Shown piece by piece: positions 1 through 44,450 of a DNA stretch of 55,808 nt (the first letter of the stretch is position 1; every line of letters begins with the position of its first letter). Source of the stretch: Bacteroidota bacterium (GTDB taxonomy: Bacteria; Bacteroidota; Ignavibacteria; Kapaibacteriales; UBA961); assembly GCA_018266765.1 (NCBI GenBank), contig JAFDZU010000085.1:1-55808 (forward strand), given 5' to 3'. A program made the translations under genes and the position numbers. The notes under the pieces are model-generated. The model was not told the DNA's origin, ran no database searches, and saw nothing but the letters and a program-made list of their open reading frames with translations.

Positions 1-1890
1 GGTTACCGATAGTTTATACTGGTATGATCCTGATACGTCATGCTTAATCAATAATGAATCTGATGTACTGCTGCCGATTATACCATTCGATGTTATGGAT
101 GACCAACTGTAATTGTAAGGTGCAATGCCTCCGGAAACTGAAGGTCGAACTTTTAAGAAAGATCCCGGACAAGTGGCAAGAGTATCTATAACTATCGCAA
201 TATTAGTTCGCACATTCACTATGTTTTCTACTGTGTCAAACGAACAGCCATTCTTCTTTTCTAATATTAAATGAACACGAAAACTTCCTGTATCGGGAAA
301 CGATTTGAATACTGTCGAATTGATTGCATTAGAAACCTCTTGACCGTCATGGAATTTCCATTTCCATGATACTATCCCGGCGGAATCAGACGAAAATCCC
401 TTAAAAGCTACCTGACCTCCCGGACAAACGACAGTGTCATTTTTTGTTCCGTTTATAAATACTTGTTGATTCAAATTATTAACACTCGAACCGGCAACCA
501 TTCCATACGATTCAAACTGAGCTAATCCATATAGTGTAGCAACAAAATTACCTCCGGATGGTGCACTAAGTGTATGATTACCAGCTGATACCAGATAATT
601 TGCCATCCTATAAGAAATTCCATCAACAGTCAGATTCACAAGATTTAATGCTGGCAAAGCAGAAAGATTCACATTGTCTAATTTTGTCGTATTAAATGTT
701 AAAGCAGGAGCAATGATTGATGTAAATAACTTAGGAGTTGGAACCGGATTAAATGAATTTGGGCTAAACGAATTAAAAGTAATACGATCGATCCCTTGTT
801 CAAGAGGAGGAATATTCATTAATAGTGGGTCGCCAATTCCTTCTGAAAATCCAAAACCTGTTCCTGCATTATCATTGAGAGAAAATGAGTAAACAGCTAC
901 TGAAATTGGTTGACTTGCCGAAATAGAAAATGTAGTTGTCACATTATCTATTTCAAAAAAAGGAGAATTAGCGGGAATGGTTATAACTGATGGGGTCCTA
1001 CTTGTTGTTAACGTAGTTGGAATCGTTGGATCTACACTCATTATTCTCACGCGTATTTTCTTGGCTGTAGCGAGCATAGGAACAATAAAATTTGTCCCCC
1101 AACTACTGATAGGCATCATTTCTTCATAGAGATGATCGCGGCCATTCGGTTCATTTCCTAAAACTCCAACAGGTATATTTGTTCTTTGATGTCCCGAAAA
1201 AAGAGCTATTTTTCCGCAATTACTACTTACAACACGAGTTCGAGTACCAGTTAAATCACCATCAGATTGAGCAAAATATACTTGACCATTGTTAAGTGAA
1301 ACCGTAAATGGAATATTTCTAGGATGAACTATAGCACCTGAAGGAAGTGCAATTATATTTGCCGTAGGTATAATTTCAACTGTCGTTCCATTTGTTATAC
1401 TAACCACTGAAATTTGGCTTCTGTAATTTTGAGTCGAGTAGAATCCCGATGAGAATGCACGATAATCATTATCAAGAGCATTAGTGGGTAATATTAAGGT
1501 TGCATCAGTACTTGTACTTAATGTATTGAATGAATAAATCGAAATTGGTTTTGTTGAAGTAACTCTGATTGATTTTGTATTTATCGTATTGCTTTCGTCA
1601 GGAAATGTATAGACGGGTGTTTGTCCCCCAACTCCACCATAAATAGCAGTAACATCCACCGAATTAGCACTATTTGCCGCAAGGTTTACTGTAATAGGAG
1701 CACGTCCGGGTAAATTCACTGTGGCAATTGTCGCTTCGTCGGATGATAAATACAACGTTAATTGAGGAGGATTAAAATTAGGCATAAATGCAATAATAAA
1801 TTCCGTTCCTTTGGTTGAATATTTTTGTGCTATCACTGCTTGAAAGCACAAAATCAAAACACATAAACCAAGTAATAGTTTCGACTTCAT
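1..1890 (-). CDS. IgGFc-binding-like/PKD surface protein, 3' end outside window
   Basis: The frame is open from an ATG at 1890 to the window edge (630 codons, no stop), so the C-terminus is missing. Residues 1-21 form a signal peptide ending in VIAQ. Residues about 24-450 resemble the bacterial IgGFc-binding-protein N-terminal domain: the mature protein starts with a GTEFIIAF motif, then alternates short beta strands with 'ISIYSF'/'ISVAVYSF' phrases. A PKD-like module follows (about 470-545, core WKWKFHDG), then the start of another Ig/PKD-like module (CPGSFLKVRPSVSGG). This suggests an exported, probably T9SS-anchored, surface protein; the sorting domain would lie beyond the window. It is 28 nt downstream of the giant T9SS gene, probably in the same operon. 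The same N-terminal domain occurs in the 25055-29128 gene. The molecular function is unknown; adhesion is a guess. Confidence 0.8.
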   Translation of the reverse strand, partial: MKSKLLLGLCVLILCFQAVIAQKYSTKGTEFIIAFMPNFNPPQLTLYLSSDEATIATVNLPGRAPITVNLAANSANSVDVTAIYGGVGGQTPVYTFPDESNTINTKSIRVTSTKPISIYSFNTLSTSTDATLILPTNALDNDYRAFSSGFYSTQNYRSQISVVSITNGTTVEIIPTANIIALPSGAIVHPRNIPFTVSLNNGQVYFAQSDGDLTGTRTRVVSSNCGKIALFSGHQRTNIPVGVLGNEPNGRDHLYEEMMPISSWGTNFIVPMLATAKKIRVRIMSVDPTIPTTLTTSRTPSVITIPANSPFFEIDNVTTTFSISASQPISVAVYSFSLNDNAGTGFGFSEGIGDPLLMNIPPLEQGIDRITFNSFSPNSFNPVPTPKLFTSIIAPALTFNTTKLDNVNLSALPALNLVNLTVDGISYRMANYLVSAGNHTLSAPSGGNFVATLYGLAQFESYGMVAGSSVNNLNQQVFINGTKNDTVVCPGGQVAFKGFSSDSAGIVSWKWKFHDGQEVSNAINSTVFKSFPDTGSFRVHLILEKKNGCSFDTVENIVNVRTNIAIVIDTLATCPGSFLKVRPSVSGGIAPYNYSWSSITSNGIIGSSTSDSLLIKHDVSGSYQYKLSVT

Positions 1891-1918
1891 AACTAATTTT
1901 CCATTCAAATAAATAGAG

Positions 1919-4900
1919 TTATTTTACAATTGAAATTTTCTTTGATGAAACGGAGTAGCCCGTTTTCATGAGGACATAGTACGTTCCGGTTTCTAAGTTT
2001 GAATCATCGAATCGTAGAGTATGTTCACCTGCCTGTAATTTTGAATACTGAACCTCTTGAATAGTTTGCCCAAATATGTCCACCAACGAAATTATACAAT
2101 TTCCTTCAATTCCCATCGAAAGTGTAATCGTAGAATTTCCGGTACTTGGATTTGGCGTGATAGTTTTTAACATATCAGGATTGGCAAACCTAACAAATTG
2201 TTTCCCGCCTTCTTTACATACTTTGATGTAAACAACACTGTCTCGGCACGCCGGAAAAACTTTACCGTTAGCATCTGTCCAAATAAATGCAGTTGAATCC
2301 GTAAAAATTAATGCCGTTGAATCAACATCAGAAAGTTTTACTAAGAATTTCAAAGTATCAAGTTGATTATTCCCCTTATATCGTTTTTTATTCTGCATAT
2401 TTAAAGACCAATAATTGGTTCGTTTGGAATTATCATCATTGAATTGACGATTGCGCGGAATCCACTGTAAAACCCTTGAATCATACTGCATTGCGGCAAT
2501 AAATTCCGTTGCTTTACTTTCTGTGGGCTGTTCATCCTTAATTCTTAAAAACACTAATAATGTGTCACCGGGAGAAACCTCAAATTGCTGAGGAACAAGC
2601 TCTACCTCAGTTATCACACCATCAGCTGGAAGTTCGATTCCTTCTCCCATAATCACTCCTATAAATCGTTCCCCTTGGGAGAATACTGTTACTGTTTCGA
2701 CAAATTTTCCAATTGTTGTCGGAGTGAAATCAGCGTTAAAACTAATAGTAACAGATGAAGGAATCGGTCGTGGAAACGATGTACGAGTTAAGTTGAACAC
2801 AGTACCTGTTATCTGAATAGAGTCAATTACTCTATCAAAATTTCCGTTATTAAAAACCCTGATTGCATTTCGAAGCGGTGCATTTCTTCCAATTATATTA
2901 CTCACGACCTGCTTACCGAAATCCAACAGCAAGACAACAATGCTCGAAGAATTACCACTTTTTGTAAATTGAAATTGTGAAGAAGTAGCCGAACATCCTT
3001 TAAGTATAATCGAAACAGAATATTTACCGTCAGCTGGAGGTGAATATCGTTGCGAGGTAGCCCCGGCAATTATTAAACCTGCAGAATTCAACCATTGATA
3101 GCTGTCTGCTAATGTTGAAACAAGTTCATCACCTTGCTGAGAAATTGAAACGTTAGGTTTTGGATTGACTGTAATTGTAATACTGTCTGATGTTCCGACA
3201 CAACCGTTACTATCTACTTCGCAATAATATACACCTGTCTTTTTTACCAATATACTTGCTCCTGTAGCAGTATTTGACCAAAGTGGAGTCCCTGAGTAAT
3301 TATCGGCATTAACTACTTCAATTCGTGTACTGTCACCTTCACAAATTATATTACTACTTGTCAATAATAGTTTTGGCGTGGGGTGTTTCTTAACTGTTAT
3401 CGTAATTGTTGCTGTATCCTTTTGTCCTTGATTATCTGTTACAATTACACGATAAGTATTAGTATTTTTTGGTAATAAACGAATTGTTGAATCTGTAATA
3501 GTTCCGCCTTTTATTATTTCTGTTTGTGGAATAATTGTGCCGTCTGCATTAGACCAAGTATATTGAATAGGAAGTGTTCCGCCCGATACTCTAACCGTTA
3601 CAAGTGTATCCGTAAATTGACACATTGAAATTGATGAAACAGTAAAACTCACGTTTAATCCTGGTTTTGGAGAAACGCCGTTTCCACGCATTGTAGCTGT
3701 TATAATGTCACCTGCTGATGTTATCCACTGCATCGTATCTGTTGTAATTCCAAGTATTGTAGGAATATACGTTATCATAACCTGCGAACTATTTCCCGGC
3801 TGAATAGTTTGCTTTGCTGTATCGGCTGTTGAATATGGATTACCTTGTGTATTTCGAAACATTGTAATTTTCAACGGTACTTGTCCGGTATTTGTCAAGG
3901 TAATATCTTTAAATTCAACCTTTTGTAACTCTACATTACCAAAATCTATTGTCGAAGCTTTACCCTGTGGAATTGAGATTGTAAAATCATTATCAGAATC
4001 ATCACTCTCACTTTTGGTCAATATCCTTATTTTACATTGAGAACTCTCTACTTTTGGTACTTCCCATTTATAACTACTATCTGCTATTTTTGTAGTGAAA
4101 AATGTCCAAGTATTTCCACCGTTTGTTGTTTTTGCGAGAGTAACGGAATCTTGAAGAGCAACTCCTTTCCATTGTATTGTTATGGTGTCGCCTGCTGATA
4201 GTATTTCACCTCCATTCGGATAAATAATAGTCGGTTTTAGGACATTTTTAGCATCTCCCTTGAGGTTTGCGAGAATTGTATCACCAGCTTGTGTAATAAT
4301 AAATGCTTTGTCGGTAAATGAACCGGCAGTCTGTGGGTCGAAAACAATTGTTATAAAAAAGCTGTCATTTTTGCGGGCTATACCTTTAAGAAAGAAATGA
4401 GTTCCTATTTCAAATAATACTGCCTGCACTTTTAGTAATGCAACTCCGGTGCTGATACAATTTGAAACTTTTTGAACAGACGTTCCTACATTGGTCAAAC
4501 CAAAATCAATATCGGACGCTACTCCTTTTGGAATTGAAATAGTAAACGTAGAATCGGAGTCATCGCTGTCTAAAGTTGTTACTACACTTATTCTGCACCG
4601 AGCACTTTCAATTTTGGGAACTTTCCATCTATATTGACCATTACGCGCAAAATAATTTACTGAATCCCAAGTTGCCCCTCCCCTGTTAAGCTCGAGGATT
4701 ACGGTATCTTGAGGGGTTGCTCCGTCCCAAGTAATTGTGACAGAATCACCTGCGGCAAGAATCTCTCCACCATTAGGATAGGTGATAGCGAGGATAGCAT
4801 TTTTTGGAGTAGCTCCCGCAACATTGAGTATTTCTCGATTATCGAGATTGGATGAATCGTATTTCTGAACAATTCCAATCAAGCGGATACGGTTTTCATT

Positions 4901-6847
4901 CCAAGTAGGAGGAATCTTAAACGTATAATTTTTTGAATAGCTATTACCTGCAATCGCGGTAGCAGGAATAATTCCGGCATCACCCCATGTACCACCGAGC
5001 ATCGAACGGAGTACGTAACGATGGTAGTGATTTGTAATAACCGATGGGAAATTATACCAAGGACTCGTGCTGTCGGGAGCTGCCCCAGTTTTAGAGAAGA
5101 AGTTTATTTGGTCATATCCGGTACCACTGCCCTGTACGCTATCTTCAACAATATAGAGATTTAAGCGCAAATCTCCTGTAGTAGTTGCTGTGAAATTTGC
5201 ACTGACATCGGCACTTAATATGCGTGACTTTTTGTAAAAAGCGGTATTGTCGAGTTGCACATTGACAGGTGGCGTTGTACTCAATTGTTCGATAATCGGT
5301 CCGCCAATAAATGGATCGAGGATATTAAACGCCTGTGAAACAGAAGGAAAACGCTTACGGTCAACAGTCATATTCGGATACCCGAGAATGTAGGTACTGA
5401 AATAATCTGAAACAGTCGATACCCGCATACTATCAACACTATTAGCATAATCATTATGAATAGATACGCCAAGTACATCACCCTGATATTTGGAAAGTGC
5501 GGCTAACAAAGCAGTCTCTCCGCGTGGACAATAGCCAACATTTACCGAGGTAGCATATTCAATAAGTACTTGTTTTTGTACTCGTGGAGTGCCTGTAGTG
5601 AACGAGAATGTATCAGAAACAATAATTAACGGTGCGCTAGTATCGACAACATCCCACGCCGTTTCAATAATTCGCCAGTAATATTTCGTCGAATAATTCA
5701 GCGGAGTGGAAATAGTGTGTGTAGTTGGTGGATTTGGACTTGTTGTTACAAAAGCTATATTCATGTTACTCCAATTTGTAGGAGAAGTGCTGTATTGAAA
5801 ATACATATTACCGGCTTTTAAATTTGGTATCCATTGAAATAATGGATATTTACTATTATTTGTTGTAGAATTGCCGGGCGAAATCAGTGCTGCAGCTTTG
5901 TAATTGAGAAGATAGGAAGTATCTGCATGTATTACAACACTATCATCAATAACCACAAAAAGATTCGATCCCAAACTCACCATCGACGAAATGACGGTAG
6001 AATAAAGCCCTGAATACTTCCAAGTAGTGCCATTATTTTTACTGTTATAGAGACCAGGCCAGTTTCCGCCTGCATACAAGGTAGAACCCAAAGAAATTAT
6101 AGACTTCACTTCCCATGGGAGTTGAGTAATTCGCACCCAACTCGTTCCATTATCTACGCTTCGATAAATCCCAGCTTCAGTTCCTGTGCTACCGGTGCCA
6201 CCTGTACCGAGAAAGAGTGTACTGCCGACATTAGTGATTGAATTTATAACATTACTATTCAAACCATTATTGTTGTTGATTCGCGTCCAAGTTGAACCCG
6301 TGTCCACACTTTTATAAAGATAGTCATAAGTTGTGCCGGCAAATACAGATGCACCAATTACTCTGAGAGTCGCAATTACTTTCTGAGACAAAGGATTGGT
6401 CCATGATGTACCGTTATTAATACTTACATAAATTCCATTTGGGGTTCCTGCAAAAAGTTTAGTGCCATTCGTAGCCAAGGAATAGGCGGGCAAGGCAGGG
6501 AAAGCAGTTATTTTTGACCATGAATTCCCACCATTGCTGCTGCTGAAGAGTCCATCCGCAGTACCAGCATACAACACCGTCCCTTTAAATACCAGAGTAT
6601 AAATCATAACATCCGTCAAGCCATTATTAACTGCAACCCATGTGCGAGCTGAATCTGTACTTTTCATCACTCCTCCTGTTGAAGTACCCGCATAGAGAAC
6701 ACCTCCGTTTTGAATTAATGCACGGCATGAACCACCTGTCGGCCCACTTGATTGTATCCACTGCGATGATAATTGTCCAAATGAACTACAGAGTATTATG
6801 CTGCAAGTCAACAGTAGTTTATAATAGAATTTAGTATATTTTTTCAT
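1919..6847 (-). CDS. Giant multidomain T9SS-secreted surface protein (1642 aa)
   Basis: I start at the ATG at 6847, ten codons inside the longest frame, because a signal peptide (KKYTKFYYKLLLTCSIILCS) begins there and AGAAAG precedes it. Domains in order: about ten sortilin/photosystem-II-assembly-like beta-propeller blades (about 25-325, repeats of the type 'LYAGT..G.(Y/F).S.(D/N).G.(S/T)W'); a fibronectin-like stretch; an Omp28-like thioredoxin-fold region (about 430-600, VGYCPRGE with Cys440 but no first Cys of a CxxC); two tandem modules starting YPNGGEIL at about 690 and 872, each followed by a choice-of-anchor-D-like segment; PKD and Ig-like modules; a cohesin-like segment near 1420-1530; and a C-terminal T9SS type A sorting domain (TPNPSTGNSTI to the final SIVK). 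It is probably exported through Sec and T9SS and attached at the surface. It is 55 nt or more downstream of the FecR-like gene. Binding or adhesion is likely, but no enzyme active site is evident. Confidence 0.85.
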   Translation of the reverse strand: MKKYTKFYYKLLLTCSIILCSSFGQLSSQWIQSSGPTGGSCRALIQNGGVLYAGTSTGGVMKSTDSARTWVAVNNGLTDVMIYTLVFKGTVLYAGTADGLFSSSNGGNSWSKITAFPALPAYSLATNGTKLFAGTPNGIYVSINNGTSWTNPLSQKVIATLRVIGASVFAGTTYDYLYKSVDTGSTWTRINNNNGLNSNVINSITNVGSTLFLGTGGTGSTGTEAGIYRSVDNGTSWVRITQLPWEVKSIISLGSTLYAGGNWPGLYNSKNNGTTWKYSGLYSTVISSMVSLGSNLFVVIDDSVVIHADTSYLLNYKAAALISPGNSTTNNSKYPLFQWIPNLKAGNMYFQYSTSPTNWSNMNIAFVTTSPNPPTTHTISTPLNYSTKYYWRIIETAWDVVDTSAPLIIVSDTFSFTTGTPRVQKQVLIEYATSVNVGYCPRGETALLAALSKYQGDVLGVSIHNDYANSVDSMRVSTVSDYFSTYILGYPNMTVDRKRFPSVSQAFNILDPFIGGPIIEQLSTTPPVNVQLDNTAFYKKSRILSADVSANFTATTTGDLRLNLYIVEDSVQGSGTGYDQINFFSKTGAAPDSTSPWYNFPSVITNHYHRYVLRSMLGGTWGDAGIIPATAIAGNSYSKNYTFKIPPTWNENRIRLIGIVQKYDSSNLDNREILNVAGATPKNAILAITYPNGGEILAAGDSVTITWDGATPQDTVILELNRGGATWDSVNYFARNGQYRWKVPKIESARCRISVVTTLDSDDSDSTFTISIPKGVASDIDFGLTNVGTSVQKVSNCISTGVALLKVQAVLFEIGTHFFLKGIARKNDSFFITIVFDPQTAGSFTDKAFIITQAGDTILANLKGDAKNVLKPTIIYPNGGEILSAGDTITIQWKGVALQDSVTLAKTTNGGNTWTFFTTKIADSSYKWEVPKVESSQCKIRILTKSESDDSDNDFTISIPQGKASTIDFGNVELQKVEFKDITLTNTGQVPLKITMFRNTQGNPYSTADTAKQTIQPGNSSQVMITYIPTILGITTDTMQWITSAGDIITATMRGNGVSPKPGLNVSFTVSSISMCQFTDTLVTVRVSGGTLPIQYTWSNADGTIIPQTEIIKGGTITDSTIRLLPKNTNTYRVIVTDNQGQKDTATITITVKKHPTPKLLLTSSNIICEGDSTRIEVVNADNYSGTPLWSNTATGASILVKKTGVYYCEVDSNGCVGTSDSITITVNPKPNVSISQQGDELVSTLADSYQWLNSAGLIIAGATSQRYSPPADGKYSVSIILKGCSATSSQFQFTKSGNSSSIVVLLLDFGKQVVSNIIGRNAPLRNAIRVFNNGNFDRVIDSIQITGTVFNLTRTSFPRPIPSSVTISFNADFTPTTIGKFVETVTVFSQGERFIGVIMGEGIELPADGVITEVELVPQQFEVSPGDTLLVFLRIKDEQPTESKATEFIAAMQYDSRVLQWIPRNRQFNDDNSKRTNYWSLNMQNKKRYKGNNQLDTLKFLVKLSDVDSTALIFTDSTAFIWTDANGKVFPACRDSVVYIKVCKEGGKQFVRFANPDMLKTITPNPSTGNSTITLSMGIEGNCIISLVDIFGQTIQEVQYSKLQAGEHTLRFDDSNLETGTYYVLMKTGYSVSSKKISIVK

Positions 6848-6932
6848 AATATTTCTTTCTGGTATCAAATGGTACATAATTTTTCATTACAGCCGAACTA
6901 ACATTACAATCAACTAATAAGATTGATTCATA

Positions 6933-7838
6933 TCATTTTTTTTGCTTCCATTTTCCGAGAAACGTAGCCGGAGCGTTTCGGTAAATATCAATTGATGGCA
7001 TCAAGGCTGCACACTTTTTATATTGCACTAAAGCATCAGAATAAAGGTTTCTCAATTCACACCAAGAACCTGCCACGAATTGTCGGAGAGCGCTTTTATC
7101 TGAAGGTAACGACTCGTTTGTTTCTGTAACAACTTGCAAACGCTCCTGTTCAATGGTAGCGGCTTCATCTTCATTTAGGACAAATAAACAATGCTGTGAG
7201 GAAGTTGAATTAGGATTTCCGGCAACACCCACGCTCCAATAATAACAATGTCCTTGTTTAAATTCAGGTATATCTTTGCTTAAATTAATCGTTAGAGTTG
7301 TGTCGTGAACTTCTTTCGCCATCACCTGTTCACCAGATTCATCAGTAATTCTTACTTCAAAATTTGTTGTTTTTGCTTCTGAAAGCCATGTCAATTGAAC
7401 CGTTGGCAAGAGTAATTTAGTATCAAACGGAAATTCGATAGCTACTTTTCCCGAAGCATCACGGCTGATTGAACCCATGAGGTCGGGAGCGGGCTGTTGC
7501 TGAAATGCTTGACCAACATATTTACTTATTTTTTGAATTGAAGAGGATTTTTTGGTTTTATGTGTAGCAGGCAAAATTTTCACACCTTTTTTTTCAAATT
7601 CCACCAAAACACCATCATCACTGATAAATGCGGCATAACTATTTTCAGAATTACGAATTGATGTTTTTTCTGGCAATGTAATCGTAGGATACACTCGAAT
7701 CCAGTTTTTTTCCATAGGTTTTTGCGCTTCGATAACACCTTGAGTCATCAACACTTTATACTCTGTTTGTGCTTTCATATATGCACTTATGGCTATGAAA
7801 CAGCAAACTATGATTCCGAATTGAACAATGGTTTTCAT
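6933..7838 (-). CDS. FecR-like periplasmic protein (301 aa), partner of CHASE2 gene
   Basis: Residues 1-23 are a Sec signal peptide ending in MKAQ. Residues about 27-95 follow the FecR beta-strand pattern: a 'G.(I/V)' strand, 'W..V..(T)I.L', 'TSIRNSENSYAAFISDDG' and 'V.FEKKGVKIL'. Residues about 130-225 look like a fibronectin/Ig-type module (VQLTWLSEAKTTNFEVRI), and the end (residues 250-285) has a TPR-like helix (YSDALVQYKKCAALMPS). Its ATG overlaps the stop of the CHASE2 gene by 4 nt (ATGA), so the two are probably translationally coupled. FecR-domain proteins next to CHASE2 sensors are a known association in other bacteria, where the pair is thought to sense envelope signals. No FecI-type sigma factor or TonB receptor is nearby, so iron-citrate signalling is unlikely. 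The FecR assignment is by pattern only. Confidence 0.65.
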   Translation of the reverse strand: MKTIVQFGIIVCCFIAISAYMKAQTEYKVLMTQGVIEAQKPMEKNWIRVYPTITLPEKTSIRNSENSYAAFISDDGVLVEFEKKGVKILPATHKTKKSSSIQKISKYVGQAFQQQPAPDLMGSISRDASGKVAIEFPFDTKLLLPTVQLTWLSEAKTTNFEVRITDESGEQVMAKEVHDTTLTINLSKDIPEFKQGHCYYWSVGVAGNPNSTSSQHCLFVLNEDEAATIEQERLQVVTETNESLPSDKSALRQFVAGSWCELRNLYSDALVQYKKCAALMPSIDIYRNAPATFLGKWKQKK

Positions 7839-9052
7839 TTTTTATGTCTCCTTTTAATAGTTGACTGCATTGAACTTTTTATTTTTGTTGATTTTTTATG
7901 TTCACGTGCTGTCAATGCACTGATATAAATCGAATACCCATCCGCCGCAAGAGCAATACTGAAAGCGGCTAATGTAATATCAAATCTAAATCGAAAATGA
8001 TCAAAACAAAATACGACAATAAATAACAAAAACAAAAGCGCGATTATCTGAATTGTCTTTGAAATTAAATCGTAATAATGAGGAACTTTATGTTCTATTC
8101 CCGAAAAAAGAATGACGACCACAAAGCAAAATATCCATGAAAAAATAACATTCAACACTTGATTCATCGAGTTCACATAATCATGGCTTAGTATCATCGA
8201 AAGAATATTGCCATGAATTTCAACACCGAATAAGTCGGGAAAAGATTTACCTGCATATCGCTTGTTAAGTGGAGTAAAATAACGGTCTTCATACGAATTT
8301 TCGTCGTTCATTGTCATTCCAAGATAACCGAATAATACTATTTTATTATTGATAAATGACATGTCAATCGAGGTATCAAGCACTTGTGAATACTCTACTC
8401 GTACATACGATTTCAGTTTTTGAAAATCAATTATTTCTTCGGTATTATTTCGTTTAGAAAGCATTGCTACTGATTCTGAATCAGCAAGTTCTGCTAATTT
8501 TACAGCGAAAGCCGAATACCGATTATTCTGAAAATCTACAAATGGATTTACACTTCTTACCGTTCTAAACGAACCGACTTCAGATGGAAAATTCACATAA
8601 CCATGATATTTCGAAAGAAGATTAGCATTTTTAATTCCAGGGCGCACTTCTATGACATCGCCATCTAAATTCCTTATAAGCTGTTCTGCAAGAACAATAT
8701 TATCATAGTTCGAGAGTACACCATTGAGTGCATTTGTTTCGGCGGGGTCTGTATCTTTATAAAACAGAACATCCACACCGGCAATTTTCGGTTTATTTTG
8801 CATCACACGGTCAATTACTTTTGCAATATTACCACGACTCAGACTCCCTACATTTACTATAACAATGTTAGTATCAATCCTTTTTGAACTCTCATCCATC
8901 ATTTGAGAATAGACAATATCAGTCAGTTCAAAATCTTTGAGTGCCTGTTGCAATGGGTCGAGAAAATCAAAATCTATATTAAGCAAACTGACAAAAAACG
9001 GAACGAGAAATATCGCCGATGTTACTATTGCACTATGAAATAAAGTTTTCAT
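7835..9052 (-). CDS. CHASE2-domain membrane sensor without output domain (405 aa)
   Basis: There is one N-terminal membrane segment (about 8-25). A large extracytoplasmic domain (about 28-300) carries CHASE2 hallmarks: 'TNIVIVNVG' near the start, a 'KPKIAGVDVLFYKD' motif, 'YVNFPSEVGSFRTVRSVNPF', and 'NNKIVLFGYLG' followed by 'FGVEIHGNILSMIL'. Three membrane segments follow (about 305-325, 335-355, 358-378), which is the usual CHASE2 topology. The protein then ends in about 25 basic residues. CHASE2 proteins normally continue into an adenylate cyclase, histidine kinase or serine/threonine kinase, and none is present here. It sits 3 nt after the OmpA gene and overlaps the FecR-like gene by 4 nt. 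Output must therefore be passed to another protein, or the domain has a structural role. The CHASE2 call is confident; the ligand is unknown. Confidence 0.85.
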   Translation of the reverse strand: MKTLFHSAIVTSAIFLVPFFVSLLNIDFDFLDPLQQALKDFELTDIVYSQMMDESSKRIDTNIVIVNVGSLSRGNIAKVIDRVMQNKPKIAGVDVLFYKDTDPAETNALNGVLSNYDNIVLAEQLIRNLDGDVIEVRPGIKNANLLSKYHGYVNFPSEVGSFRTVRSVNPFVDFQNNRYSAFAVKLAELADSESVAMLSKRNNTEEIIDFQKLKSYVRVEYSQVLDTSIDMSFINNKIVLFGYLGMTMNDENSYEDRYFTPLNKRYAGKSFPDLFGVEIHGNILSMILSHDYVNSMNQVLNVIFSWIFCFVVVILFSGIEHKVPHYYDLISKTIQIIALLFLLFIVVFCFDHFRFRFDITLAAFSIALAADGYSIYISALTAREHKKSTKIKSSMQSTIKRRHKK

Positions 9053-9055
9053 AAG

Positions 9056-11236
9056 TTACTTACGATTATCTGTTTCGATGATAATTCTTACTGCTCGGTT
9101 ATAATTTCGACCTTCGGGAGATTCATTGGAATATTGATTAGATATACCTTCACCTCGAACTTCAACGACAGATTCCTTAGGCAATAAGGATGCAATTCCT
9201 TCAGCACGTTTTTGAGCAAGTTGTTGATTATATTCTTTTGTACCAATATTATCCGTAAATCCGATTACTCGTACTTTAGAATTGGCTGTAATATTTTTTT
9301 TCACTTCTTCTATCATAGCATTGTTTGCAGGAGTAAGTCCTGTGCTATTAATATCATAGAGAATTATATCGTAGATTTGGGAGAATTTATCCGGCTTTCC
9401 GGCACGTTCTTTCTCTTCTGGAGTAACTTGTTTTACTTTTAAGTTCAGTGTAGTTGCACTACGAGGAATTACACCTTTAGCATTAGAAACCACAAAGTCA
9501 TAGTAAATATCGCCTTGCGAAAGTGGCACGGCTGAAATGTTCTTCCAAGAAATATCAAAACGAATAGGCACTGCATCAGCGAAATTTTCTTTTTTGATAT
9601 ATAATTGAGAATTCTTCCCGTCCGCTGATTGTTTTACTTCAAAATATCCACCGGTTAGTTTATACGGTGACTTAACTGTAGAAAAATAGGAGATGCTTTC
9701 AGGTGCTACTTCTCTATCAATATCTATTGTAGAAATTGGAGCGAAAATAGCGGGATTATTGGATGATAATTCCACCCGACGATTTTCTTGTCGTGCTTTT
9801 TCATCAGTTGTAGATCCGTTTATTGTAGCCGGGTTAGAGGGCAAATCCCCCGAAAAAATCACGATCCGTTCATCGGGAATTTTCCAAGTGTCTTGCAGGT
9901 ATTTTTTCACGATTAAAGTACGGTCAGCAGCAATATCTTTACCGTTACTTTCTACTCCGTCGTGGTATCCTGCAATAGTGAGGATAGCATCAGGATTTTC
10001 GGTCAGTCTTTTGCCGACAATGTTGAGAATATCATTATAAAGGGCAAGTGGTTTGGATTTGAGGCGTTCTACTGTTTTTTCAATTTTATATTGGTCACGT
10101 AATGTTGGGTCAATAAAAGAATACACATCTGAAATATCAGAAGCGGAAGAAAAATAAAACAGATACGGCAATATCGGTTTCATAATAGTTTTACGAAATT
10201 GCTGAACTGTTATTTCTAATTCTGGAAATTTCTTAACTTCGCCATTAGAAAATTTGCCGATAACGCTATCAATTTCTGCATACGTTACCGTAGAAATACA
10301 CTCACATTTTTTCGTAATCGCGTTTAACTTTAACTGTTGGTCATCTTTACAAATTAATTCCGGCAAACAATCATTTGCTTCGAGATTCGCTATGTAGCAC
10401 TCAGGACATTTATTTTCAGCAAAAACAGTTGGAGTTGGAGAATATTTAAGTGAAATCCCTGCATAGAATCCACTTCTACGCCAAGATCCATCATCTTTCA
10501 ATGCGCCGGATAATTGTGTAATTCCAATTGTGTAAAACACTTCAGGAGTAATAAGAGTTGAGCCGTTTAGATTACCCGCAATCTCATAACTTAATCCCGC
10601 AATACCGGATAATTGAAACGAATGTAAACCTGGAATATCTCCTGAACTGCTGTTCCTTTGTTTCGATAATTTGCCGGTCGAATCATTATAAAAATAAGCG
10701 TTAGAAGGACTTACTACATTCTCACTTTGGTTGTAAGAACTGTAGAATAAATAGCTTGACTGTAATCCGGCATGAGCCGATAACCTATACGTAAGGTGAT
10801 AACTCGGCATGAGTGAAACAAAAGCTCCTGCTACTTTAGAGGATATTGAATAATCAAAAGCACCTTTTACTCCTTGATTACCACTAAGGTTATTGTTGAA
10901 TATCGTTTCGTGCTGTTGAGTAAGAGTTCCTGAATGAAACTGCATTCCAAGCCGTATATCCCAGAACCAATTGGGATTTACACTTGAAAGTGGAAATTCT
11001 AACAATCCACCGATTGCCATTCCAAAACCAAGTTGTGATTGCTTATCACTAAAATTATCTGGACAGCAGAATGCTATATCATTAAATTTAGCAAAATTTG
11101 CATGATGTAAGTCTATACCACCATTCAAAAAAGTGCCATACCTCAGAAACTGTAACGTATCTGTTTTTTTATCACTTTGAGCAGTTGAATTTTGAAAGGC
11201 ACATACGAACACAACTAAGAGTAAACAATATTTCAT
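9056..11236 (-). CDS. Outer-membrane barrel with two OmpA-like modules (726 aa)
   Basis: Two ATGs lie 6 nt apart. I chose the inner one at 11236 because AAAGGA sits six bases upstream of it, whereas it abuts the outer ATG. The signal peptide spans about residues 1-20. Residues about 25-270 look like an outer-membrane beta barrel. A Cys-rich stretch (CPECYIANLEANDCLPELIC) follows. A first OmpA-like module covers about 360-490 (LYNDILNIVGKRL, ENRRVELSSN), an Ig-like linker about 500-610, and a canonical C-terminal OmpA domain about 620-724 (VRVIGFTDNIG, then QQLAQKRAEGIASLL and NRAVRIIIET). OmpA domains bind peptidoglycan, so the protein probably tethers the outer membrane to the wall. It shares both OmpA modules and the linker arrangement with the preceding gene, 13 nt upstream, so the two look like a duplicated pair in one operon. 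Confidence 0.85.
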   Translation of the reverse strand: MKYCLLLVVFVCAFQNSTAQSDKKTDTLQFLRYGTFLNGGIDLHHANFAKFNDIAFCCPDNFSDKQSQLGFGMAIGGLLEFPLSSVNPNWFWDIRLGMQFHSGTLTQQHETIFNNNLSGNQGVKGAFDYSISSKVAGAFVSLMPSYHLTYRLSAHAGLQSSYLFYSSYNQSENVVSPSNAYFYNDSTGKLSKQRNSSSGDIPGLHSFQLSGIAGLSYEIAGNLNGSTLITPEVFYTIGITQLSGALKDDGSWRRSGFYAGISLKYSPTPTVFAENKCPECYIANLEANDCLPELICKDDQQLKLNAITKKCECISTVTYAEIDSVIGKFSNGEVKKFPELEITVQQFRKTIMKPILPYLFYFSSASDISDVYSFIDPTLRDQYKIEKTVERLKSKPLALYNDILNIVGKRLTENPDAILTIAGYHDGVESNGKDIAADRTLIVKKYLQDTWKIPDERIVIFSGDLPSNPATINGSTTDEKARQENRRVELSSNNPAIFAPISTIDIDREVAPESISYFSTVKSPYKLTGGYFEVKQSADGKNSQLYIKKENFADAVPIRFDISWKNISAVPLSQGDIYYDFVVSNAKGVIPRSATTLNLKVKQVTPEEKERAGKPDKFSQIYDIILYDINSTGLTPANNAMIEEVKKNITANSKVRVIGFTDNIGTKEYNQQLAQKRAEGIASLLPKESVVEVRGEGISNQYSNESPEGRNYNRAVRIIIETDNRK

Positions 11237-11249
11237 AAGCATTCCTTTT

Positions 11250-12557
11250 TTATCTGTTGCTGATAGAATTTTCTATTTCAATTTGCACCGTTCGGCAATA
11301 CATTCTTGATTCCGGTGTTTTCCATTCATCCTTGAATAAATCTTTTTCGCCGTTCCCGACCGACCGAATATGATCCGGTTTTATTATCTGATTGTATCTC
11401 TGCATGAGGTAGCCGGTAATACTTTCTGCACGTGCAACTGAACGTAAGCGATTACGTTCGTCATCACCAATTTCATCGGCAAAACCGCTCACTGTTACTT
11501 TTGATGATGGCAACAGCCGACCATTTTCGTAAATAATTTCAACAATACGTTTATGATAATCAGTTAAATCATTAGAAGCAAAATCAAACAGAATTAAGTT
11601 AAACCTATGCAATTCTTTACCTGCAATTTTAAGTGTTTTTTTCTTAAATAATGTTTGTTGTTCTACTTGGATATTGCCAACATTACTTGTTTGTTGGCGG
11701 TTAGTATTATCTGTTGTAAAAAGGCGGAATTCGATTTGTTGTTCGTTTTTTGGTTGATGGTCGGTGTCTTCTTCTATATTCCATAGATAGTTTGGAGGCA
11801 ATAATGTCCCCTCTCGGCTGTATAAAATACTGTCTTCGGTAAATTGCCATGCTTTGATAGAATGACGAACGATTTGCTCTCGTTTGGGGTATTCTAATTG
11901 AAATTCAATCATTGGTGGTGTCATCCGAATTTGAATATCGCGAATTTCGACAGGATGAATAATTCTCCAATCTGCAACTAGTTCAACTCTTCGATTTTCA
12001 GCATTTGACTGTTCGGTATATTCCAATTGTGCAGTAATTGAAGGTTTTTCCGGTAAAGTTCGAGCTATGATTGGTAAACGAGCTGTATCAATTAACCAAA
12101 CAGAAATAAAGTATTCTTGAATTGTCTTTGCACGTATAAATCCAAGGGTATCAAGCTCAATTCCATCAGTACATCCTATGATTTGCATCGTATCATTCGG
12201 ATTCTCCTTCAGGCGTTTCCCTACAATATTTAAGATATATCTATAAGCAAACAGCGGCGTCATTGTTTGCACTAAATTATTTTCATTAAAATACTTAGCT
12301 TCATTTGGTGTAAGCTTTTTATATCGTCCGAGCTGAAGGTCTCCTTGGTCTTTTTCAAAGAAAATATATGGCAAAAGAGGTAGGAGCGTGATTGCCTCGA
12401 CTTCTTCGCGAAGAATTGTTATGACGGGTTCTCTATTACCTTTATCATCAATTCCAACAGCAGAAATAGTTGGTTCACCCACACTTTGAGAATATGATGA
12501 TTGGCAAAGTAGCATCAATAATACAATAAAGCAAAAATATGTAGCAAATTTTCTCAT
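11250..12557 (-). CDS. OmpA-family protein with two OmpA-like modules, no barrel (435 aa)
   Basis: The signal peptide is residues 1-23 (ending SYSQ). There is no room for a beta barrel. A first OmpA-like module begins almost at once (about 55-195: LLPYIFFEKDQGDL, then YILNIVGKRLKENP and ENRRVELVAD). A beta-rich linker follows (about 200-310), then a C-terminal OmpA domain (about 315-430: NLILFDFASNDLT, VTVSGFADEIGDDERN, ARAESITGYL, CRTVQIEIEN). The phrase ILNIVGKRL is identical in the neighbouring 9056-11236 protein and the second module matches in order, which points to a tandem duplication followed by loss or gain of the barrel. It is probably a periplasmic peptidoglycan-binding protein. 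It starts 27 nt after the caspase gene. Confidence 0.8.
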   Translation of the reverse strand: MRKFATYFCFIVLLMLLCQSSYSQSVGEPTISAVGIDDKGNREPVITILREEVEAITLLPLLPYIFFEKDQGDLQLGRYKKLTPNEAKYFNENNLVQTMTPLFAYRYILNIVGKRLKENPNDTMQIIGCTDGIELDTLGFIRAKTIQEYFISVWLIDTARLPIIARTLPEKPSITAQLEYTEQSNAENRRVELVADWRIIHPVEIRDIQIRMTPPMIEFQLEYPKREQIVRHSIKAWQFTEDSILYSREGTLLPPNYLWNIEEDTDHQPKNEQQIEFRLFTTDNTNRQQTSNVGNIQVEQQTLFKKKTLKIAGKELHRFNLILFDFASNDLTDYHKRIVEIIYENGRLLPSSKVTVSGFADEIGDDERNRLRSVARAESITGYLMQRYNQIIKPDHIRSVGNGEKDLFKDEWKTPESRMYCRTVQIEIENSISNR

Positions 12558-12584
12558 AGTTCCTATCTGATTAAATTCATTGAT

Positions 12585-15500
12585 TTAATTTTTCTTTTGA
12601 GTTACAACAAATCCCTCCGAGTCGAATGAACGAAAAATTGGTGTTTGATTTTGAATGTTATTATCGTTCATTATTTTTTTTATTCGTTTCCCAATGTAAT
12701 CTTGAAGAGTAAACAACGACACTTGAGCATCATAATTTGATGCTGCACGCCCTGATAAACCTTCCAAAAGTGCTACTGTAAATAATCCATGCTGTAACTT
12801 GTCATTTTCACGTGCTTGTTGGGATAACAACGCAGAGGACATTAGATAAACCCCCGCATTTCTATTGAGCTGGTATAATACTTTAGAAGCACCGGATTGT
12901 TCATCGAACGAAGCTGTTACTGAACCCGCATGGCAAGCATCAAGTATTATAGCTTTTTTCTCACACCGAACAAGGCCAAACTTCGTTTGAATAGTGTGTA
13001 CTGAAATTCCTTTTTCTTCAATAATTTGTCGGTCGGCAATAGATTCAACATCTTGAGTTACTAAGTAGAATTCCTCTTCTGAATTTTTAACGGCTAAAGA
13101 ACCGTGACCAGCATAATAAAATATAAATCTGTCCGTTGGTTTAATCTTTCCTGCAATTTCATCAAATGTTTCTGTTATAGTACGATAGGTTGCTTTTTCA
13201 TCAAAAATGGGATAGATTTGTACATCTTTATATTCACTTGTACTGAGATTTTCTTTTATTGCCGAACATACACTTTCGGCATCATTTCTGGCATATTTCA
13301 GTGTGTATTTTGAATTTTTGTATTTGCTAATACCAATTGCGAGAACATATAAGGTTGGTTTAGATTCTGATTGAATTTCGTTATAGATACTGACTGTGTC
13401 GAATCCACGAATTCCTGTTGCAGAAGCTCCTTCTACTCTTATAAAATTTTTCCCCGAAACCAATGTAACAGGAATTGTCATCAAGCCATGAAGTTCTTTT
13501 TGTGGAATGGTTGTGTCAATCGTTCCATTATTCGTTATTCGTAATTCTTCAATTCCCGAAGTACCTGTATGTAGTTCAACCGTAACATTAATTTCATTTT
13601 TCTTTATACTTTTCACTGTCAAAGGTGAAAGAATAGTTATCGAAGGCGGTATGTTTTCAAGTAATTTAGCAATGTCATTCCTATTTTTTACGGGTGTTTT
13701 ACTTGCTCTGCCTACTACTTCTGCTAATATTCCAGGTTTTTCAAGAATTGAAATGTAGTTTTCTAAAGGCATAGAACGGTTTTGGCTTACAATATTCATG
13801 TATGAAATACCAGTGGTAGAAGCATCAAATAAACCATCATTTGAGACAGCCACCCAGCCGTCAGGAGCAACTGAAACTAATTTCATTACCGGTTCAAAAC
13901 TCTTTAATGAAGAAACAATACAAGTTCCGTCATTACCAACACTTGCTACAAACTCATTATTAGGAAACAGAGCAAAATCCTGAACTTCTGAAGCATGATC
14001 ATATGATTCATTGACTGTTATTAAATCTTCACTTAATTGGCGTAAAGAATTGTCTCTGCTACTACTAAATAAATTATTTTCCATCCATGCTAAACGATTC
14101 ACTTTATCTCGGTGTACTGTTATTTTAGTTTCAGAATAACCACCCTTTTCAGTTTTCTTAAAAATACTAATACTTCCATCTTTATACCCCACAGCAATTT
14201 TATGATTTGTCGGATGAACAGCGCATGAAGTCAGAATTCCGGCCTGAATTCGAATGCTATCTTTTTGTTTCATCGTTAAAACATTCCAAATTCTGATAAT
14301 GCCTTTTTCAATCGTAATACAATCATCCTTAATTATACTGATACCAAGTTGTGGCTGACTAAGTTTGAGTGAAGTAATTTGTTGACGCGTTTTTGCATCC
14401 CACATAATCAACGAGCCATTTGAATGGCTTGAAATAAAATTATCAGTACCGGGAATAAACGAAAGAGCTTCTACTGCCGAAAGATTAGTTCCAAAAGCAT
14501 AAATTGAATCTTGAAACAACATAAGAAGTGAACTATTTGCAGTACCTTTTCCAATTAAAAGTCGGTCTCCTTTGTCATTATACGAAAGATGATATTGCGC
14601 ACCACTTTTATCAGGTAATGGATATAAAGTAGCGGCTCCGTTAGAAAGATTCCATACCCATAAATTATAATCCTGATTCAAGGTTGCAATTGTATTAGAA
14701 CTAACAGCAACTGCACGCTCAATACTGCTTGTAGCATTTGGAGTCGGGATTTCATCCATTGTAGATTTATTTAGCCAGCTTAATCTACCGAGACGATTAC
14801 CTACGACGATTATACCATTTTCAATTGATAATGAACTTGTTGCATTTATTCCGTCTTTTGCGTTTCCTCTTCGAGATAGCGCATCTGCCCATTTCAGTTT
14901 TCCTTGCGTGGTTTCGAGAGTAATAATATTATTTTCAGGATTGAACGAAGCAGTACTTACTTTTTCTGATGAAGATACCAAAGGCCAAGTTTCTTTTGAA
15001 GGAGTTGCTGTGGTGATATTAAAAGTTCCTACTTTCCCGAGTTCATCTATCCAAACTAATGTCTCATCATTTAACTTACCTAATGTTAATATTTTTGAAG
15101 AAGTAAGCGAGATAAGTTTTGGAGTTGAATTAGTAGTAATATCTATAATAGCAAGTTCGCCGCTTGTTGTAGCACATGCGATATATCTCCAACTATTAAA
15201 CGAAAGCATGAAAGAAACATCACCCTTAGAATGAAGTTGCAGTTGCTTTACTTCAACCAAATTTTTGGTTGCATCAAAAAATCGTATTGATTTTTCGCCT
15301 TCGAGTGCCACGGCAATTGAATTCTGCGTTGGGTCGTCGCTGTAGGTTATGGCAACAATTTTTTCACCAACGATGAGTTGGTCATCTTTTTTGCCCGATA
15401 GCAAATCCCAAAGGATTAATTTTCCGTCTTTGCCGCCACTGATAAGTTTTCGACCTTCAGGTTGAATTGACACCGCAGTTACATTGTCAGTATGCCCGTA

Positions 15501-15782
15501 AAGGATATGAACTAATCTTCCAAATTCCTGACCTGCGGTTCCACTCCATACTCGAATAAAATTATCATTACTCGCACTAATTACTTGTTTGGTAGTTGTT
15601 GAATAAAGGATAGAATTGATGCGGGCTGTATGGTCGGTTTGAACCACAACTTTGAAGTCATCGGGTGGTGGTGATGCTTGAAGTGTATAAATCGAACAGA
15701 TGAATAGAAACAACAACTTAGTAATAACTCGTTGAAACAGAATAAGAATACCATATTTGGTTATTATGTTTATTAAATTCAT
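12585..15782 (-). CDS. Exported WD40-repeat/caspase-like protein (1065 aa)
   Basis: The N-terminus has a hydrophobic signal-like segment (about 11-36, ending TLQAS), so the protein is predicted to be exported. Residues about 45-690 are WD40-type repeats (for example 'LYGHTDNVTAVSIQPEGRKLISGGKDGKLILWDL'-like blades), probably two propellers. An Ig-like spacer (about 715-800) is followed by a caspase/peptidase C14 domain (about 805-1060: LYVLAIGISKYKN start). The His-Cys dyad is intact: His893 in FYYAGHGS and Cys950 in LDACHAGS. Bacterial WD40-caspases of this family are usually cytoplasmic; the leader here is notable. It heads a seven-gene minus-strand series, with a candidate promoter at 15862-15894. 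Substrate and activation trigger are unknown. Proteolysis of envelope proteins is an inference from location and intact active-site residues. Confidence 0.85.
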   Translation of the reverse strand: MNLINIITKYGILILFQRVITKLLFLFICSIYTLQASPPPDDFKVVVQTDHTARINSILYSTTTKQVISASNDNFIRVWSGTAGQEFGRLVHILYGHTDNVTAVSIQPEGRKLISGGKDGKLILWDLLSGKKDDQLIVGEKIVAITYSDDPTQNSIAVALEGEKSIRFFDATKNLVEVKQLQLHSKGDVSFMLSFNSWRYIACATTSGELAIIDITTNSTPKLISLTSSKILTLGKLNDETLVWIDELGKVGTFNITTATPSKETWPLVSSSEKVSTASFNPENNIITLETTQGKLKWADALSRRGNAKDGINATSSLSIENGIIVVGNRLGRLSWLNKSTMDEIPTPNATSSIERAVAVSSNTIATLNQDYNLWVWNLSNGAATLYPLPDKSGAQYHLSYNDKGDRLLIGKGTANSSLLMLFQDSIYAFGTNLSAVEALSFIPGTDNFISSHSNGSLIMWDAKTRQQITSLKLSQPQLGISIIKDDCITIEKGIIRIWNVLTMKQKDSIRIQAGILTSCAVHPTNHKIAVGYKDGSISIFKKTEKGGYSETKITVHRDKVNRLAWMENNLFSSSRDNSLRQLSEDLITVNESYDHASEVQDFALFPNNEFVASVGNDGTCIVSSLKSFEPVMKLVSVAPDGWVAVSNDGLFDASTTGISYMNIVSQNRSMPLENYISILEKPGILAEVVGRASKTPVKNRNDIAKLLENIPPSITILSPLTVKSIKKNEINVTVELHTGTSGIEELRITNNGTIDTTIPQKELHGLMTIPVTLVSGKNFIRVEGASATGIRGFDTVSIYNEIQSESKPTLYVLAIGISKYKNSKYTLKYARNDAESVCSAIKENLSTSEYKDVQIYPIFDEKATYRTITETFDEIAGKIKPTDRFIFYYAGHGSLAVKNSEEEFYLVTQDVESIADRQIIEEKGISVHTIQTKFGLVRCEKKAIILDACHAGSVTASFDEQSGASKVLYQLNRNAGVYLMSSALLSQQARENDKLQHGLFTVALLEGLSGRAASNYDAQVSLFTLQDYIGKRIKKIMNDNNIQNQTPIFRSFDSEGFVVTQKKN

Positions 15783-15861
15783 TGTTCTGCTTATCGATTG
15801 AGAATTATTATAGAAATATCTTAAACATCATCCTTTGTCTTATAGCATTTGACAATATACA

Positions 15862-15894
15862 CAATATTAATTTGAAAACCATTTTTTCTACAAT
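15862..15894 (-). promoter_or_regulatory. Candidate Bacteroidota-type promoter of the caspase-OmpA-CHASE2 operon
   Basis: On the minus strand ATTG, a 21-nt spacer and TAATATTG match the TTG/TAnnTTTG pattern seen before other genes here, with one mismatch in the -7 box. Transcription would start about 70 nt before the ATG at 15782. The 127-nt gap also holds a weak inverted repeat (TTGTC...GACAA) near 15835-15855. Confidence 0.35.
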
Positions 15895-25010: not shown

Positions 25011-25054
25011 TCATACTTAATTATAGCACACAACGCTTATTGGCGGGAGAATCC

Positions 25055-43544: not shown

Positions 43545-43985
43545 TCACACAAGGCGTTTAGTAAGGGATAACACATTGAGTGCAGTGGAAGTTTGGGCAG
43601 GTATATATTCGATTTTATCCATAACTTTTCGCATAATTTGAACGCCTAACCCACCACGTTTAAACTTTTTAAAGTATTCTTCCATATCGGGTTCGGGTAC
43701 GGACATAGGATTGAACGTATCACCATTATCCATTACCTGAATGATAAGTTCAGAATTGTTTTTTTCAATACTTACTATAAATTGCCTATTGTTGTCATTA
43801 TGGTAAGAGTGTCGAATAAGATTCGAACATGCTTCATCAACAGCGAGTGCGATTTGGAATGCATCAATTTCTCCGAAACCAAATAATTTAGCTTGAGCAC
43901 CCACAAAGTCTCTAATTTTCTCAAGCTCAGCGGTATTGCCGGTTGCGCTTATTTGATTATTGTTTGTATTTAATGTCGCTACCAT
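43545..43985 (-). CDS. RsbW-like anti-sigma/switch kinase (146 aa)
   Basis: A GHKL/HATPase_c_2 domain protein. Motifs: N-box DEACSNLIRHSYHND (about residues 51-65), G1 VMDNGDTFNP, and G2 KFKRGGLGVQIMRKVMDKIEY. In partner-switching systems such a kinase phosphorylates a STAS-domain antagonist and, in its absence, sequesters a sigma factor or another target. The adjacent STAS gene (33 nt upstream in transcription order) and the PP2C phosphatase supply the other two parts. Which target is released is unknown; no sigma factor is encoded in the window. Full length. Confidence 0.9.
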   Translation of the reverse strand: MVATLNTNNNQISATGNTAELEKIRDFVGAQAKLFGFGEIDAFQIALAVDEACSNLIRHSYHNDNNRQFIVSIEKNNSELIIQVMDNGDTFNPMSVPEPDMEEYFKKFKRGGLGVQIMRKVMDKIEYIPAQTSTALNVLSLTKRLV

Positions 43986-44018
43986 AATTTCTATAACGTT
44001 AAGTAGTAGAAGGTGAAT

Positions 44019-44372
44019 TTAGTTGGCAAATTTTGCAATTGCCGCTTGGTTGTTTTCCACAATTTCAAACAGCATCGGAAACCCCAACAAGTCAAATACA
44101 GTAAAAACTTTGGGTTTCATTTCTGCGAGTTTTATATCTCCTCCTGTTTCGCGAACATCCTCGATATAAACCATAAATACACCCAATCCTGCACTTGAAA
44201 TATAATCTAATTCGGAAAAATTTACGATTATTTTATGCTTTCCTTCCTCCACTAAATTTCCGAGAGCTGATTCTAATTGAGGAGCTGTATGTGCATCAAG
44301 ATATCCTTGAATTTTCAGGCACTTAATCTCGCCTATGCTTTGATGTTCAATAGTAAATTTTGTTTCGCTCAT
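44019..44372 (-). CDS. STAS-domain anti-sigma-factor antagonist (117 aa)
   Basis: A SpoIIAA/RsbV-like single STAS domain. The phosphorylation site is LDYISSAGLGVFMVYI (Ser-Ser in the conserved position), and KLAEMKPKVFTVFDLLGF follows in the helix that contacts the kinase. EHQSIGEIKCLKIQGYLDAHTAPQLESAL is the typical first half. The unphosphorylated form binds the RsbW-like kinase encoded next; the upstream PP2C phosphatase would dephosphorylate it. A 15-nt near-palindrome lies 9 nt before the ATG. Clear family member. Confidence 0.92.
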   Translation of the reverse strand: MSETKFTIEHQSIGEIKCLKIQGYLDAHTAPQLESALGNLVEEGKHKIIVNFSELDYISSAGLGVFMVYIEDVRETGGDIKLAEMKPKVFTVFDLLGFPMLFEIVENNQAAIAKFAN

Positions 44373-44381
44373 GGTGTTATC

Positions 44382-44396
44382 TTTCTGTTACAGAAA
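44382..44396. repeat. Near-perfect palindrome before the STAS gene
   Basis: TTTCTGTTACAGAAA has 7-base arms around one central base, 10 nt upstream of the STAS ATG. It could be an operator or a small RNA hairpin; no protein is identified that would bind it. Confidence 0.3.
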
Positions 44397-44450
44397 TTAG
44401 ATTATCAATTTAATATATTTGAAATATTTTACATTTGATTTAAGTTTTAC

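Follow-up and report, generated by a model that had tools for sequence, protein, structure and literature searches.

A seven-gene envelope operon joining an exported caspase, a CHASE2 protein and an MtxA/DUF928-like protein to large surface proteins in a Kapaibacterium-type bacterium

The stretch of DNA considered here (the window) is an entire contig of 55,808 bp from a 3.71 Mb draft genome of the Kapaibacterium type. On its minus strand, from position 15,782 to the contig end, it carries a run of seven genes encoding a WD40-caspase, two OmpA proteins (OmpA2 and OmpA1), a CHASE2 protein, a protein first described as FecR-like and two large surface proteins (gene 2 and gene 1). The open reading frames and their domains match the content given for these seven same-strand genes in the preliminary description. 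The gaps reported there (27, 13/7, 3, -4, 94/55 and 28 nucleotides, nt) agree with those recomputed to the longest starts (27, 7, 3, -4, 55 and 10 nt) when alternative starts are allowed. No weight can be given to the one candidate promoter named earlier, since a sigma-70 scan returned 47 sites versus 63 in shuffled sequence, that is, below chance, and a terminator scan of the window was equally uninformative. The contig end truncates gene 1, and in Candidatus Kapaibacterium MAG-305, a member of another family, the operon extends past the seven genes with another (third) barrel-OmpA-OmpA gene and a BNR/sortilin protein; the operon in the window is therefore probably truncated and the full unit longer. 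Only one C14 gene and one CHASE2 gene were found in the 3.7 Mb genome, both of them those of the window.

The WD40-caspase (1065 amino acids, aa; 12585-15782, minus strand) comprises a signal peptide, WD40 repeats and a C14 domain at 12627-13346, which matches Pfam C14 with 55.6 bits against a cut-off of 21.4. Alignment places the catalytic dyad at His893 (13104-13106) in an AGHG motif and Cys950 (12933-12935) in a DACHAG motif, and both columns are invariant across eight aligned relatives; the profile of the caspase also matches solved metacaspases. Its hydrophobic, signal-peptide-like N-terminus supports the export proposed earlier, and the protein is, judged from its sequence, an exported caspase with an intact dyad. 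A caspase of this kind could be an effector of cell death, immunity or kin competition that attacks its own or a neighbouring envelope when CHASE2 senses damage or contact. Such a role would fit the caspase homology, the surface proteins encoded next door and the nearest named caspase subfamily, the NCBIfam model for caspases with EACC1, though the match lies far under the cut-off of that model. However, the caspase appears to be exported, it contains no death, NACHT or effector-associated domain, and PADLOC finds no defence system, so that we regard this role as very improbable. Anti-phage defence was rejected as a candidate, the PADLOC search giving only a generic caspase match and a HEAT/ARM-type match on the WD40 repeats.

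The CHASE2 protein (405 aa, 7835-9052, minus strand) has an N-terminal transmembrane segment, a periplasmic CHASE2 domain at about 8111-9013 and C-terminal transmembrane segments. The domain between these segments scores 80.6 bits in Pfam against a cut-off of 26.3, and the transmembrane pattern bears out the periplasm-facing orientation assigned to it before. No cytoplasmic output domain (kinase, cyclase or other) is found in the window protein, which ends in a short basic tail. The same holds for the CHASE2 proteins of 117 non-redundant loci from the genomes of the order plus named genomes (median length 418 aa, median tail 23 aa); these loci were sampled by similarity to the query from draft genomes with simple calling of open reading frames, a limit that applies to all the genome comparisons below. 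Searched against plasmids, the CHASE2 protein of the window had a single match, in Bernardetia.

The gene that follows overlaps the CHASE2 gene by 4 nt and encodes a protein of 301 aa (6933-7838, minus strand) with a signal peptide, an anchor-like beta domain, an Fn3/Ig domain and TPR helices. The signal peptide agrees with the periplasmic position given to this protein in the preliminary description. Its FecR identity finds no support in Pfam: the FecR model (PF04773) has no match in the window protein (E up to 0.1) or in any of 46 homologues (E up to 0.01), and family membership by Pfam was thus rejected. In the AlphaFold2 model (predicted local distance difference test, pLDDT, of 91) a beta domain, an Fn3/Ig domain and TPR helices are seen, and the Fn3/Ig and TPR parts match the MtxA crystal structure 4z29 as one block (Z 9.3, root-mean-square deviation 3.3, 148 residues). 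A Foldseek search with the full-length model was dominated by the Fn3 domain, so the N-domain was modelled alone. It matches 5ix9, a "cell surface anchoring domain", with a Z of 11.2, the next entry having a Z of 4.9; 5ix9 is the anchor of the Marinomonas RTX adhesin. The fold is described in PMC13090378 as a retention domain of the Dvh system, where it docks on DvhG, a periplasmic protease. The DUF928 model is matched by 3 of the 46 homologues, and a profile comparison with cyanobacterial DUF928 is collinear over the Ig-TPR part (E 3.8e-5, score 42, hhalign probability 71%), whereas reversed and unrelated controls reach a score of at most 22 and an E of 0.04 or worse. A better name for the protein is thus MtxA/DUF928-like, and its N-domain resembles an adhesin anchor.

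Two OmpA genes lie between the CHASE2 gene and the caspase gene. OmpA2 (435 aa, 11250-12557, minus strand) is predicted to be exported from its signal-peptide-like N-terminus and has a C-terminal OmpA domain by Pfam, an N-terminal OmpA-like region and no barrel. OmpA1 (728 aa, 9056-11242, minus strand) has an N-terminal region, which is a beta-barrel (OMP_b-brl_2) in the MAG-305 counterpart, followed by two OmpA domains in two Pfam stretches. Both proteins exceed the Pfam OmpA cut-off, and together with the barrel of the counterpart these domains support the earlier view of them as barrel and wall links. Signal peptides and domains would place the caspase, the OmpA proteins and the MtxA-like protein beyond the inner membrane. 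The OmpA family has many paralogues per genome, and among about 70 of them OmpA1 groups with its positional counterpart in MAG-305 (support 0.94), as does OmpA2 (0.996). The genome has about 14 other barrel-OmpA-OmpA proteins (~700 aa; L263-L275), and 6 of the 14 genes immediately adjoin a gene with a sorting tail of the type IX secretion system (T9SS; p ~5e-4), an arrangement resembling the PorP/SprF-OmpA-cargo sets of Bacteroidetes. Judged by this adjacency, the OmpA pair is probably part of the operon's surface-protein side. One of the adjoining genes (L264:11365-16197) encodes a protein of 1610 aa that combines numerous WD40 repeats with Ig domains of the HYDIN type and a T9SS tail.

The surface proteins themselves occupy the rest of the run. 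Gene 2 (1652 aa, 1919-6877, minus strand) has a BNR-like N-part, Omp28, ASH (HYDIN) Ig domains and a T9SS sorting tail (Pfam Por_Secre_tail, 32.8 bits against a cut-off of 27). The genome encodes the T9SS translocon SprA (SprA_N, 134.9 bits), and the T9SS-tail model finds at least 149 stretches in it at or above its cut-off. Gene 1 (1-1908, minus strand) is present with its N-terminal 635 residues, which belong to an IgGFc_binding/PKD surface protein (Pfam IgGFc_binding 161.9 bits; PKD_4). Its counterpart in MAG-305 has 1579 aa and a weak, sub-threshold T9SS-tail match (21.3 bits against 27). The description of both as large T9SS surface proteins therefore stands for gene 2, while in gene 1 the contig end removes the part that would carry the tail. 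On the plus strand, at 25040-29128, the window encodes another IgGFc_binding surface protein (1362 aa) with ASH/HYDIN Ig domains, which is in kind a gene 1 paralogue.

Profiles of the window genes were used to compare the neighbourhoods of CHASE2 genes. MAG-305 (L137/L143) carries the complete set of seven, in unchanged order and on a single strand, at 24-39% identity and with gaps of 25, 33, 11, -4, 26 and 110 nt. This recurrence marks the seven genes as a real unit, in line with the single envelope operon proposed at the outset, and rules out chance adjacency. Since MAG-305 keeps the order and both OmpA proteins group with their positional counterparts, the operon is, as far as such comparisons can tell, an inherited or jointly transferred unit. 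CHASE2 of this type occurs in 45 of the 123 genomes of the order, most of which have the FecR-like gene behind it and nothing more. The scattering among relatives that had been raised as a counter-indication is thus seen in most of them, but one other family keeps the full order, and several lineages again have a caspase or CHAT protein next to the pair. A FecR-like gene lies within two genes of CHASE2 in 99 of the 117 non-redundant loci, and the stable core of the system is CHASE2 plus this protein.

Such a distribution could also mean that the pair is an independent, widespread sensor and that the caspase, OmpA and surface genes are merely co-transcribed with it, with no joint mechanism. Most relatives have the pair by itself, the complete operon is seldom found, and a phylum-wide test gave no enrichment of OmpA around CHASE2 (3 near, 5 far, p=0.49), from which it follows that OmpA is a lineage-specific part. 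This reading, however, must account for a seven-gene order retained at such low identity and for the linkage of proteases to the pair. A C14 model derived solely from genes unlinked to CHASE2 located 13 C14 genes within four genes of CHASE2 and 0 in 780 genes further out (12 versus 0 with the window excluded, p=5e-4). C14 and CHAT combined gave 21 near versus 1 far, again without the window (p=1e-5), the CHAT model in this test being built from CHASE2 neighbours. T9SS tails are modestly enriched near CHASE2 across the phylum (25 versus 9, p=0.014); an enrichment of BNR was not used, its model having been seeded from CHASE2 neighbours. Three kinds of fusion also tie the parts together, namely FecR-like::C14::outer-membrane barrel directly after CHASE2 (L029, L112), CHASE2::FecR-like (L026, L110, L131) and, in a cyanobacterium, CHAT::CHASE2 (L282). 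Mere co-transcription is, in our estimation, quite unlikely.

The clan-CD proteins beside the pair differ in architecture and have signal-peptide-like N-termini in nearly all cases with a readable start. WD40-C14 is found near CHASE2 in the window, L137 and L136, CsgG-C14 in L170 (L219 has the same layout), TPR-C14 in L220, TPR-CHAT in L144 and L165, and Glucodextran_B-C14 with a papain-family neighbour in L179, whose gene layout is shared by L153 and L202. In these last three loci, all from Ignavibacteria, CHASE2-FecR is followed by a gene of ~455 aa, a gene of ~165 aa and an exported caspase; the ~455-aa gene of L179 is a papain-family Peptidase_C1, giving two exported cysteine proteases in one run, and a T9SS-tailed protein comes after the exported caspase in L179 and L202. 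In one family of the order the pair itself is expanded, a tandem CHASE2 pair preceding three or four FecR-like paralogues (L125, L127, L129, L130). Two further CHASE2/FecR loci look like Bacteroidota under records titled Bradyrhizobiaceae and Rickettsiales (L149, JAGFIZ010000051.1, and L216, PBTY01000055.1, respectively).

A related set of genes is found in cyanobacteria. Eleven DUF928 plasmid loci of cyanobacteria were read; an annotated CHASE2 gene lies within three genes of DUF928 in 9 of them, a CHAT gene is close by in 8, and annotated two-partner-secretion (TPS) or haemagglutinin-type adhesins are present in 6. In Nostoc UHCC 0302, DUF1822, CHAT::CHASE2, DUF928, a TPS adhesin, ShlB and CHAT follow one another on one strand, a run whose layout is similar to that of the window, though the secretion route is another one. 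In the cyanobacterial clusters, as in the window, a DUF928/MtxA-like protein follows CHASE2, accompanied by a relative from clan CD (CHAT), an outer-membrane transporter and secreted adhesins. Unlike the window, the clusters have CHAT in place of the WD40-caspase and two-partner secretion in place of T9SS, some of their CHASE2 proteins carry a fused CHAT, and they are without the OmpA pair. The CHASE2-DUF928-CHAT clusters are annotated, but no description of them as a system was found in the literature searched, nor was any work on CHASE2 with CHAT or with hemagglutinin.

These clusters bear on another explanation, in which the operon is an assembly unit for T9SS adhesins with a monitor of envelope stress, and surface proteins that misfold or stall are cleared by the caspase in the periplasm, without anything being switched on or released. 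The adjacency of barrel-OmpA-OmpA genes to T9SS-tailed genes in 6 of 14 cases agrees with quality control of this kind, as do the export of the protease and a WD40 part that could serve as a broad binding platform. Against it, metacaspases are known for specific cleavage and not for degradation, and in cyanobacteria the CHASE2 and clan-CD set is found again without an OmpA pair and with a different route of secretion. We therefore hold quality control to be unlikely.

Several pairs among these parts are already on record, namely metacaspase with OmpA, metacaspase fused to CHASE2, and FecR or MtxA with CHASE2. OmpA domains occur in 14 prokaryotic metacaspase operons, and a metacaspase-CHASE2 fusion is known from Trichodesmium (PMC3501461), with no set described there that joins an OmpA pair, CHASE2, an MtxA-like protein and surface proteins. 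The mtxA gene of magnetotactic bacteria is followed by a CHASE2 adenylate-cyclase gene (PMC4439547); MtxA resembles the window protein in its signal peptide, its Ig and TPR domains and its adjoining CHASE2 gene, but the magnetotactic CHASE2 has a cyclase output, and caspase, OmpA and T9SS genes are not reported there. In the Burkholderia BiofilmReg operon, a FecR-domain periplasmic protein adjoins a CHASE2 protein, and the response regulator is needed for biofilm (PMC5192318); in contrast to the window, this operon comprises a LysM-FecR protein, a CHASE2 histidine kinase and a response regulator, with no protease. WD40, CHASE2 and DUF928 genes lie side by side in Nostoc punctiforme and were reported as species-specific (PMC5587647), but no link to a caspase or OmpA was made. 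NsrA of Sinorhizobium is an outer-membrane barrel that signals to CHASE2 proteins (PMC13001267). The earlier statement that no described system has this set thus holds for the whole, as no description of the seven-gene set or of the clan-CD link was found in the literature searched, and is narrowed by the pairs just named.

The closest functional precedent is offered by the Lap and Dvh systems, in which an inner-membrane receptor restrains a periplasmic cysteine protease that acts on adhesins (PMC13090378). LapD-LapG-LapA and DvhD-DvhG-DvhA share with the window an inner-membrane receptor, an exported cysteine protease and a large surface adhesin in one system, and the N-domain of the MtxA-like protein resembles the anchor fold of their adhesin retention domain. 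They differ in that the window protease is of the caspase type (C14) and not of the BTLCP (LapG) type, its CHASE2 receptor has no cytoplasmic c-di-GMP (GGDEF/EAL) module, its cargo uses T9SS, its anchor-like domain sits in the adaptor and its cleavage is inferred. With this precedent and that of NsrA in view, an adhesin-display switch is proposed. Composition and linkage point to an envelope module with CHASE2 and the MtxA/DUF928-like protein as its core and the exported clan-CD protease as the likely effector, and we give a caspase-driven switch like Lap/Dvh a little less than an even chance. The barrel-OmpA proteins would sense the state of the outer membrane, the wall or the T9SS adhesins, and the MtxA-like protein would relay that state to CHASE2 in the inner membrane, perhaps through physical contact. 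As CHASE2 has no output domain, its signal would most simply be used in the periplasm, where it would hold or release the caspase. The target of the caspase could then be an adhesin, a tether of the OmpA type or the anchor-like protein. To judge from the metacaspase-type DAC motif, the cut would probably come after Arg or Lys, and it would change surface display or retention. Such a switch would be analogous to Lap/Dvh but made from unrelated protease and receptor parts.

Several observations weigh against a switch of this kind. Only 2 of the 123 genomes examined from the order have the full run of seven genes, and 95 of the 117 CHASE2 loci are without a clan-CD protease within 4 genes, which makes the protease an optional partner. 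WD40-caspases and OmpA genes are common in the phylum. The anchor-fold match is structural only, and it concerns a domain of the adaptor rather than one shown in the adhesins. The link to DUF928 is weak by sequence, and the T9SS tail of gene 1 is unreadable where the contig ends. The wider proposal is more tentative: an undescribed class of switches common to Bacteroidota and Cyanobacteria, where a CHASE2 that has no output domain or is fused to CHAT would, together with an MtxA/DUF928 adaptor, control an exported caspase or CHAT that releases or matures T9SS or TPS adhesins, is possible but on balance doubtful.

Elsewhere in the window, on the minus strand at 43545-46631, a HATPase_c_2 (RsbW-like) gene adjoins the gene of a SpoIIE-phosphatase/GAF membrane protein, the two forming a partner-switching module.

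Bacterial caspases have mostly been discussed as cytoplasmic proteases of cell death or immunity, and little is known of the signals and outputs of CHASE2. A conserved operon that unites an exported caspase with surface adhesins and a CHASE2 without output domain provides the caspase and CHASE2 with a definite candidate role that can be tested. Comparable sets are found in further bacteria, cyanobacteria among them, and suggest an envelope switch, so far undescribed, whereby a protease of the caspase type may govern surface display. In cyanobacteria the set comes with CHAT and two-partner-secretion adhesins, which suggests a general logic. If the proposal is true, the operon would stand beside the Lap adhesin switch as its caspase-driven counterpart, and DUF928 and MtxA would be explained as CHASE2 adaptors.

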